Assembly: GCF_000258515.1 (NCBI RefSeq)
Contig: NZ_AJLF01000002.1
Coordinates: forward strand, 1 to 64,000
DNA: 64,000 nt
Reading direction: 5' to 3'
Source of the DNA: Thermococcus zilligii AN1
GTDB lineage: Archaea > Methanobacteriota_B > Thermococci > Thermococcales > Thermococcaceae
Part shown: positions 1-3,165 of the stretch, one piece after another
How the letters are laid out: every line of letters starts with the position of its first letter
Numbering within the stretch: position 1 is the stretch's first letter
Translations under genes and position numbers: made by a program
Notes under the pieces: model-generated
What the model was told of the DNA's origin: nothing
The model's input: only the letters and a program-made list of their open reading frames with translations
Databases searched by the model: none

Positions 1-2702
1 TTTAAGTCAACAACTTCAAACATCTTTCGTCATGTTGCAATAAGACTCTGGGAGAATGGAAACTCGGAGTATCAACTGAAACAATCAATGGAATACCATA
101 GTTGCAATAAGACTCTGGGAGAATGGAAACTGCAAGCAACACCAACGGCCGCTCAGGAACATCAATAAGTTGCAATAAGACTCTGGGAGAATGGAAACTC
201 ACCCACCACCTCCCATCACTTCAAAAGGTAACATAGTTGCAATAAGACTCTGGGAGAATGGAAACTAACAATATCCTTTAACGTCATTTTGTCTGTCCTC
301 AGTTGCAATAAGACTCTGGGAGAATGGAAACAAGGAGGCTGAGTTTTTACTGAAGCAGGGTGCTATGGCTTTGGTTGCAATAAGACTCTGGGAGAATGGA
401 AACCTAATCGTCCCATCATTACCCAAACCACTCTTATCCAACGTTGCAATAAGACTCTGGGAGAATGGAAACTAGGCCCCCTTGTCAAAGTCATAATAAA
501 CTCATACCACGTTGCAATAAGACTCTGGGAGAATGGAAACAATGAGGCGGAGATGGTAATGGATGCAGTGTTGGCGCGTTGCAATAAGACTCTGGGAGAA
601 TGGAAACCATCCTCAACATCGACAACCGTCGTAAACCACAAACCGTTGCAATAAGACTCTGGGAGAATGGAAACTAAGACCACCAAAAATTAGGACAACA
701 CAACAAAATTGTGTTGCAATAAGACTCTGGGAGAATGGAAACAAGATTGTTGCGAATGGTTATGCTGGTGTTGTGAGTTGCAATAAGACTCTGGGAGAAT
801 GGAAACAAGGAGTTTGAGGAGTTGATAAGGGATATTATTGGTAAGTTGCAATAAGACTCTGGGAGAATGGAAACTAGTAACCGTTCGCGTCAGAGACCCT
901 CACACCCTCGTGTTGCAATAAGACTCTGGGAGAATGGAAACTAGAGGTAGCTCCCCACAATGTCCTCGTCCTCCTCCCCAGGTTGCAATAAGACTCTGGG
1001 AGAATGGAAACCATAAACGGCCCTGTTCCCCACCTTCCCCACCGGCGTTGCAATAAGACTCTGGGAGAATGGAAACCGGAGAGATTGACCTCTTTGCTGA
1101 GAACACGCTCGAGTTGCAATAAGACTCTGGGAGAATGGAAACCACGGATGAGGAGGCAGAGAAGGTCATCGCTGAGATCCTGGTTGCAATAAGACTCTGG
1201 GAGAATGGAAACAGGAGCGAGGGATCACAATCACCGGCTGGTTTGTGGACAAGGGTTGCAATAAGACTCTGGGAGAATGGAAACGTTATGTTTGTTATGC
1301 TTAAGATGTTAAAGTCTTCGGTTGCAATAAGACTCTGGGAGAATGGAAACACGATAGGGGCAACAGGATACTTGAACCAGAGGTTAGGGTTGCAATAAGA
1401 CTCTGGGAGAATGGAAACGTTATGTCTGTTATGCTGAGGACAGTGAAGTCTTCGGTTGCAATAAGACTCTGGGAGAATGGAAACCCGGCACTGAAGGACG
1501 TGGGCGGGTTCGAGGATCTGTTGCAATAAGACTCTGGGAGAATGGAAACAAAGATTAAAAACCGGCGTTCATACGCTTTCAAGTCTGTTGCAATAAGACT
1601 CTGGGAGAATGGAAACACGACGCAGACACAATAGTTCAGAAGGCTGTCGACATTATGTTGCAATAAGACTCTGGGAGAATGGAAACCACCTGAACGTCCT
1701 CGACTTCCCACTCCTTCTCGCTGAAGTTGCAATAAGACTCTGGGAGAATGGAAACCGGCACCCTAACAAACAGCACTTTCTCCCTCATCCCGAAGTTGCA
1801 ATAAGACTCTGGGAGAATGGAAACCAGTTCCACTGCCTCGACCACCCTATCGAGAACCACGTTGCAATAAGACTCTGGGAGAATGGAAACGCAGGGCGAC
1901 GGGACGATTACTGTGGACTTTGTGTTCGTTGCAATAAGACTCTGGGAGAATGGAAACAGGCAGATATGGGGAATAAAACTCACGGAAACGAACCGTTGCA
2001 ATAAGACTCTGGGAGAATGGAAACGAGGGCTCTTCCGACCCCAGCCCGACCCTTGACGGCTGTTGCAATAAGACTCTGGGAGAATGGAAACTCCCAGTAC
2101 ACTGCAACCTCCACATCATACGCGTATGTTGCAATAAGACTCTGGGAGAATGGAAACGAGGCGCTACCGGTTCTATGACGCGCTCGATGCAGCGGTTGCA
2201 ATAAGACTCTGGGAGAATGGAAACAAACACAATCTCAACCCTAAACAACATCTCCAACCACCGTTGCAATAAGACTCTGGGAGAATGGAAACAAGGGAGT
2301 CACCGGGACAGTCCCCGGCCTGGCAGTGGGCGTTGCAATAAGACTCTGGGAGAATGGAAACTTCGCTGGTGCTGGGACTACGCTTGTTGTTGCTGAGCGG
2401 GTTGCAATAAGACTCTGGGAGAATTGAAACTTGATGTAGAACATCGTGTCGACTGCTGGCTGTTTTGAGTTGCAATAAGACTCTGGGAGAATTGAAACCG
2501 ACGTTGGTATACACGTCTTTCCACATACGGGTGTCGGTTGCAATAAGACCCTGAGAGAATTGAAACGGAAGTTCTCGAAACTGAACGCAGCGTTAGAGGG
2601 ATGTTGCAATAAGACTCTGAGAGAATTGAAACACGACAGCCAGCACGGAGAGCAATGCCACAACTCCTTTGTGTTGCAATAAGACTCTGAGAGAATTGAA
2701 AC
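1..2702 (+). CRISPR. CRISPR array, 40 complete repeats, left end outside window
   Basis: Forty 30-bp repeats (first 34-63, last 2673-2702) begin GTTGCAATAAG and end GAATGGAAAC; they are separated by 39 unique spacers of 34-42 bp, and bases 1-33 are part of another spacer. The first 35 repeats are identical. From the repeat at 2401 on, they drift: G25T at 2401 and 2469, T14C/G18A/G25T at 2537, G18A/G25T at 2603 and 2673. Decay at the right end places the leader to the left, outside the window, and transcription on the + strand. The last eight repeat bases (ATGGAAAC) resemble the 5' handle of Thermococcales crRNAs. No cas gene lies in the window, so the subtype cannot be told. Confidence 0.99.
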
Positions 2703-2783
2703 AAGGGGTATTATTGCAGGCACTGTGGTTATGCGGTTAGTGATGCTGAGTTGGCTCGTAGGGGGTATGTAGTTATTGAGTGA
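2703..2783 (+). pseudogene. C-terminal fragment of a CxxC-containing protein
   Basis: An open frame starting directly after the last good repeat encodes 26 residues ending in TGA at 2781-2783. It contains YYCRHCGYAV, a zinc-knuckle-like CxxC, and finishes RRGYVVIE. No start codon lies in this frame before the repeat, so it is the tail of a gene whose front is missing. The stop overlaps the GAGGTGAT ribosome binding site of the next gene, which is typical of a real operon. The parent protein is not recognised. Confidence 0.5.
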
Positions 2784-2793
2784 GGTGATATTT

Positions 2794-2967
2794 ATGGGTA
2801 TAGTTTTAGATGTGTTGCTATATTTGGTTATTTTATTTGTTGTTGGTTTTAGTGCTTTGGTGTTGTTGGTTTGGTTTTATTCGATGTTGGCGGATTTGTT
2901 CCTTGAACCGTTAAGGGGGTTGTTTGATGAAGGTGAGGGATTACGTGAGAATGAAAGGTATAAGTGA
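2794..2967 (+). CDS. Small single-span membrane protein, unknown function
   Basis: A 57-residue protein with one long hydrophobic helix (about residues 4-33, rich in V, L, F and I) followed by a short charged tail ending ENERYK. The ATG at 2794 was chosen over a TTG at 2776 because GAGGTGAT at 2782-2789 precedes it by four bases. Codon use (TTG, GTT, TTT, ATT) is unlike the GC-rich host genes around it. It is the only intact gene in the 319-bp segment between CRISPR repeats. Whether it is still expressed is unknown; no relative is recognised. Confidence 0.6.
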   Translation: MGIVLDVLLYLVILFVVGFSALVLLVWFYSMLADLFLEPLRGLFDEGEGLRENERYK

Positions 2968-3031
2968 TTTATATCCTCACCAGAAGGAGGCTTTGAAGGT
3001 TCTTCTTGGGACTGATAAGAAGTTGCAATAA
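2927..3031 (+). pseudogene. N-terminal fragment, possibly of an SF2 helicase
   Basis: A 34-codon frame from ATG 2927 (or ATG 2951 in the same frame) overlaps the end of the small membrane gene and ends at a TAA supplied by the decayed CRISPR repeat (CAATAAG). The text ISDLYPHQKEALKVLLG resembles the stretch with the conserved Gln before Walker A in superfamily 2 helicases, where a hydrophobic-P-x-Q-x-x-A pattern is common. The P-loop and everything after it is absent. The helicase reading rests on this short pattern alone. Confidence 0.4.
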
Positions 3032-3051
3032 GGCCCTGGGAGAATTAAAAG
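3022..3051 (+). repeat. Decayed CRISPR repeat
   Basis: Thirty bases matching the array repeat at 25 of 30 positions (differences at 12, 14, 25, 26 and 30), in the same orientation. It closes the right side of the 319-bp segment. Confidence 0.9.
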
Positions 3052-3130
3052 ACAAGAACACAGTTCACCCCGGGCTTTGGTGGGGGTCTCAGGAAACTTC
3101 GAGGGGGTGTGGGGGACGGGACGTCCCCCC

Positions 3131-3150
3131 AGACTCTGGGAGAATGGAAA
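3131..3150 (+). repeat. Partial CRISPR repeat
   Basis: Twenty bases identical to repeat positions 10-29; the first nine bases are missing. A further 11-base match to the repeat end (AGAATCGAAAC, 3156-3166) follows and runs into the stop codon of the PHP gene, so the array once reached at least to about 3166. The 79 bases between this piece and the decayed repeat (3052-3130) hold no gene. Confidence 0.85.
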
Positions 3151-3165
3151 TCAGAAGAATCGAAA

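Follow-up and report, generated by a model that had tools for sequence, protein, structure and literature searches.

The first 64,000 nucleotides of contig NZ_AJLF01000002.1 of Thermococcus zilligii AN1 (hereafter the window) open within a CRISPR array whose repeats are 30 nt long and whose leader side is cut off by the contig start. The old end of this array contains 319 bp of T/G-rich DNA unlike that of the host, which lie flush between two CRISPR repeats (Table 1). This anomaly of the array is real and rare, foreign in its make-up, and most likely the product of recombination. The interpretation favored here, although its chances are somewhat short of even, is that invader DNA recombined with the array through two former spacers, the outer edges of which became the edges of the segment.

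Position of the segment in the array

The segment is bordered by array repeats on both sides, as a spacer is, but its length of 319 nt falls outside the 33–49 nt typical of these arrays. The junctions given in an earlier note on this DNA, a repeat ending at position 2,702 and a decayed repeat starting at position 3,022, were confirmed exactly. Downstream of the terminal repeat, a trailer of approximately 100 bp, which includes a partial repeat, is followed by a gene on the opposite strand encoding a PHP-domain-like protein (named by eye). Three further arrays are present in the genome (C1, approximately 66,834–69,500, minus strand; C2, 368,669–372,308; and C2, 391,439–395,270), and the ends of all three match the terminal repeat and the trailer of the window array at 85%–92%. 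Because these two elements are common to all four array ends, the oldest spacer slot is the one taken up by the segment; in the three other arrays, this slot comprises 36–37 nt. Its location at the old end of the array, as proposed in the earlier note, was borne out by this comparison, and what was described there as a decayed repeat turns out to be the terminal repeat, conserved in all four arrays.

Besides the CRISPR repeat family, nothing was detected in the Rfam search. A cryptic repeat was not found inside the segment, where the best match has 15 mismatches in 30 nt, the commonest value in shuffled sequences. A row of several decayed repeat–spacer units, to which the length would roughly correspond (349 nt, approximately 5 × 70), was ruled out by the lack of repeat traces and by the continuous reading frames. 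The trailer includes a G+C-rich palindrome (GAGGGGGTGTGGGGGACGGGACGTCCCCC, positions 3,096–3,130) without a match in Rfam, which recurs at array ends and elsewhere in many Thermococcus genomes.

Table 1. Features at the old end of the window array (positions in the window)
Feature	Position	Strand	Remarks
CRISPR array	34–2702	+	39 ordinary spacers between 40 repeats, each 30 nt long; CRISPR-DR6 (Rfam) at 2603 and 2673
Last good repeat	2673–2702	+	GTTGCAATAAGACTCTGAGAGAATTGAAAC; 1 mismatch; left border of the segment
Foreign segment	2703–3021	+	319 bp; oldest spacer slot
Gene tail with CxxC	2703–2783	+	KGYYCRHCGYAVSDAELARRGYVVIE*; open at left edge, cut at repeat
Putative former spacer A	2703–2739	+	starts AAGGGGTATTATTGC; right limit uncertain; inference only
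Intact hydrophobic ORF	2794–2967	+	57 amino acids, MGIVLDVLL...; probably membrane
Gene head	2927–3021	+	MKVRDYVRMKGISDLYPHQKEALKVLLGTDKK; similar to SF2 helicase N-terminus; open at right edge, cut at repeat
CCA	2980–2982	+	candidate PAM of putative former spacer B
Putative former spacer B	2983–3021	+	39 nt; ends GGGACTGATAAGAA
Decayed terminal repeat	3022–3051	+	GTTGCAATAAGGCCCTGGGAGAATTAAAAG; 4 mismatches; also found where the three other arrays end
Conserved trailer	3052–3130	+	with G+C-rich palindrome
Partial repeat remnant	3131–3151	+	beyond the trailer

Gene content and composition

Three open reading frames on one strand cover nearly the entire segment. The gene tail with its CxxC motif, the intact small membrane ORF with a ribosome binding site and the cutting of both outer genes at the repeats, all reported previously, were recovered, the site upstream of the 57-aa ORF being the Shine–Dalgarno-like sequence GAGGTGAT. 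In none of 3,000 dinucleotide shuffles did three open frames of such lengths occur together. The base usage differs from that of the host, in agreement with the earlier description: C makes up 7.8% of the segment but 28.5% of the remaining window, and it occupies the third position in 5 of 115 codons, whereas two host genes have it there in 178 of 465. The 319 bp are a continuous stretch of a foreign operon, probably of viral or plasmid origin.

Family profile searches with the gene tail gave weak zinc-ribbon matches only, and neither a family nor a relative of the 57-aa ORF was found in protein searches. Over 23–24 residues, the gene head is 46%–58% identical to a motif at the N-terminus of large helicase ORFs; one of these appears Hel308/Ski2-like by eye, and the head also resembles the start of a viral helicase (DLYPHQKEA). 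It is truncated before motif I, and the similarity to helicases is confined to the N-terminal motif. Of the proposed assignment to an SF2 helicase, this similarity stands, whereas a Pfam match was not obtained and the likeness lies below any family threshold; the assignment is plausible but weak. The segment displays no sign of a present function, and it is probably inert, because its transcript would greatly exceed the length of normal crRNAs and both outer genes are incomplete.

Rarity of the segment and search for its source

In 39 Thermococcus arrays from approximately 23 genomes, which were chosen by repeats similar to those of the window and cover the genus in part, 1,196 of the 1,206 repeat-to-repeat intervals are 33–49 nt long. 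The ten remaining intervals measure 4, 52, 57, 58, 67, 70, 79, 115, 132, and 319 nt. Those of 52–79 nt adjoin degenerate repeats, the 115-nt interval conceals a repeat with 11 mismatches, the 132-nt interval includes 100 Ns, and the 4-nt interval is a slippage-like duplication; the 319-nt interval is the sole one of its kind. The 4-nt interval (AAAG, at L036:7640-7900, corresponding to approximately 394,640–394,900 of C2 in G000) is flanked by two identical copies of a spacer, as from slippage or unequal recombination. A comparable case was not found in the open-licence literature.

In eight relatives (L039, L040, L044, L067, L070, L076, L077, and L082), the array end adjoining the corresponding PHP gene was compared, and the segment is absent from this orthologous position in all of them. 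Seven carry ordinary spacers of approximately 35–40 nt up to the array end, and in L040 degenerate repeats alone are left beside the PHP gene. According to the earlier note, the idea of a capture would fail if relatives carried the segment as ordinary chromosomal DNA without flanking repeats, or if a longer host gene crossed it. Both were sought: 101 genomes contain no match, the orthologous array ends have ordinary spacers, and no host gene crosses the segment. In these 101 genomes, the segment DNA gave only matches of 25–52 nt with E-values of at least 5.7 ∙ 10−4 and no array nearby, which were taken as chance.

No match of the segment DNA was obtained in phage and plasmid collections, and its comparison with 835 spacers gave only chance matches of 10–15 nt. 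Protein searches with the three frames revealed nothing except the helicase N-terminal motif. Relatives of the segment, for which the earlier note had suggested a search in Thermococcales viruses, plasmids, and integrated elements, were not found in phages, plasmids, viral contigs, genome contigs, or the 101 genomes. The capture of mobile-element DNA proposed there is in accordance with the foreign composition, the spacer slot, and the absence from the chromosomes of relatives, but a Thermococcales mobile element as the source was not substantiated, since no homologue was found.

Routes of entry

Like ordinary Thermococcales spacers (type I-A and I-B/G, with P. furiosus-like cas genes), the segment is foreign, lies between two repeats with its edges at the repeat borders, and has a PAM-like CCN candidate, located inside its right end. 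It differs from them in being approximately 8.5 times longer than usual, in containing one complete ORF and parts of two others, and in being confined to the oldest slot of one array. The exact repeat borders leave two main routes of entry, namely the joining of a very long fragment by Cas1–Cas2 or an exchange limited by spacers.

In the favored exchange, the array end would formerly have consisted of a repeat, spacer A, a repeat, spacer B, and the terminal repeat. Both spacers (approximately 37 and 39 nt) would stem from a single invader, with order and orientation preserved and a distance of approximately 240 bp between them. Recombination of the invader via the A and B arms, by double crossover or gap repair, would then have replaced A, the repeat, and B, plus anything between them, with the 319 bp of the invader that are bounded by the outer edges of A and B. 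The coincidence of both edges with repeat borders would follow because the spacers set the limits. Both the origin of the segment ends as former spacers and the recombination itself are what we infer from this arrangement. The broader idea that stored spacers may serve as homology arms, by which part of the archive becomes a longer continuous copy of an invader, and hence as a second entry route besides Cas1–Cas2, is put forward a little more tentatively still.

With an exchange through two spacers, unlike with a single oversize capture, a CCN PAM is expected within the segment at a distance of one spacer length from its right edge, and the trinucleotide CCA immediately precedes the last 39 nt of the segment. 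Because CCN occurs 35–40 nt from the right edge in approximately 6% of shuffles and the motif was noticed while the idea was being formed, it is a hint only. A source protospacer with a 5′ PAM was not found for the segment, and the internal CCA suits the last 39 nt alone. The type I-A PAM of T. siculi is YYN (PMC11246428), and the acquisition PAM of P. furiosus is NGG, which corresponds to CCN on the other strand (PMC7192623). The cas genes of the genome are P. furiosus-like and include the Cas1, Cas4, Csa2, and Csx9 families. In L088 and L089, the sequences matched by spacers of this genome are flanked by CCT, CCT, CCT, and CTT, which represent approximately two independent cases, because the two loci are homologous.

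A spacer pair of the kind required by the two-spacer exchange exists in the genome, since the neighboring spacers L033-7544 and L033-7613 of the C1 array (L033:7544-7651) match one provirus-like locus of two relatives (L088:1498-1964 and its counterpart in L089) on the same strand and in the same order, 428–434 bp apart. By eye, this locus seems to encode a HerA/FtsK-like ATPase and membrane proteins and appears similar to an integrated element. When the genome's own spacers were concatenated and compared with the genus, one outside target locus type was found in a search that left out the last array and a few other spacers, scored few candidates per genome, and was not exhaustive.

A sister array retaining A and B as separate spacers was not seen among the arrays compared. 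The lack of a second oversized case in the 39 arrays counts against the two-spacer exchange, as do its arms of 37–39 nt, which lie near the lower limit of what recombines efficiently. P. furiosus COM1 reportedly recombines with approximately 40 bp. Sulfolobus recombines with 48- and 30-bp arms (PMC5684531), and in Haloferax, recombination is raised by Cas3-dependent targeting (PMC12814878).

The main rival is a direct capture, in which an untrimmed 319-bp fragment of the invader would have been joined by Cas1–Cas2 at either side of a repeat as a giant spacer in the first acquisition of the array, perhaps after a failure of Cas4 trimming. We regard it as rather unlikely, although exact repeat borders are the mark of Cas1–Cas2 joining, the segment occupies the slot that was filled first, and Cas1 and Cas4 are present in the genome; moreover, Cas1–Cas2 of S. 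pyogenes integrates unprocessed substrates in vitro in the absence of Cas9 (PMC8034620). The tightly held spacer length in the interval sample counts against a lax integrase, the internal CCA is not predicted by a direct capture, and in S. pyogenes a ruler-like effect impairs the second joining step of longer prespacers (PMC8390005), the long substrates tested there being far shorter than 319 bp. Recombination with a repeat-bearing element (for example, a mini-array), or some other repeat–repeat exchange in which the DNA became trapped, is improbable. Repeats recombine readily and arrays are rearranged at repeat borders (PMC8047081), and array slippage occurred in this very genome, as in the case of the 4-nt interval. 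The known events, however, delete or duplicate spacer–repeat units, whereas the segment is added foreign DNA of non-unit length. Such an element would have to carry repeats within two adjacent genes, since both outer genes break off at the repeats, and no repeat-bearing source was found in the 101 genomes, phages, and plasmids. That foreign DNA was captured is supported. As to the route, the earlier note offered direct capture and recombination between repeats; we prefer recombination with an invader through two spacers to a repeat–repeat exchange.

An assembly error, in which a foreign contig became linked to the array via the repeats, is very improbable. The contig does end inside the array, 2.7 kb away, but a stray contig would need a repeat at both ends, and to the right of the segment come a degenerate repeat that is unique, the true trailer, and the PHP gene. 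Hardly to be expected at all is a transposon or integrating element that entered an old spacer and decayed later. The foreign composition would suit such an event, and insertion sequences likewise disrupt regular arrays with foreign DNA; yet neither Pfam nor PHROGs gave a transposase match, the edges of the segment lie exactly at the two repeats, and nothing recognizable is left of the two halves of a spacer.

If recombination through two spacers was the route, spacers would be targets of host–invader recombination in addition to guides, invaders could rewrite an array, and hosts could archive whole stretches of genes. A direct capture, if true, would be an extreme natural failure of spacer-length control. 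Either possibility lends itself to a simple test in those Thermococcales that are amenable to genetics.

Two further observations concern ordinary spacers of the genome. The spacer at L034:9218-9284 (approximately 369,217 of C2 in G000), composed of GCAAGTCCAGTTC and GTTTCAATTCTCCCAGAGTCTTAT, includes a 24-nt piece of the reverse-complemented CRISPR repeat and hence originated from a CRISPR array; the 13 nt joined to this repeat piece occur nowhere else in the sequences compared. In the window array, the spacers at positions 1,285–1,320 (GTTATGTTTGTTATGCTTAAG...) and 1,419–1,454 (GTTATGTCTGTTATGCTGAGG...), one unit apart, are clearly related, as if they stemmed from two variants of one protospacer.
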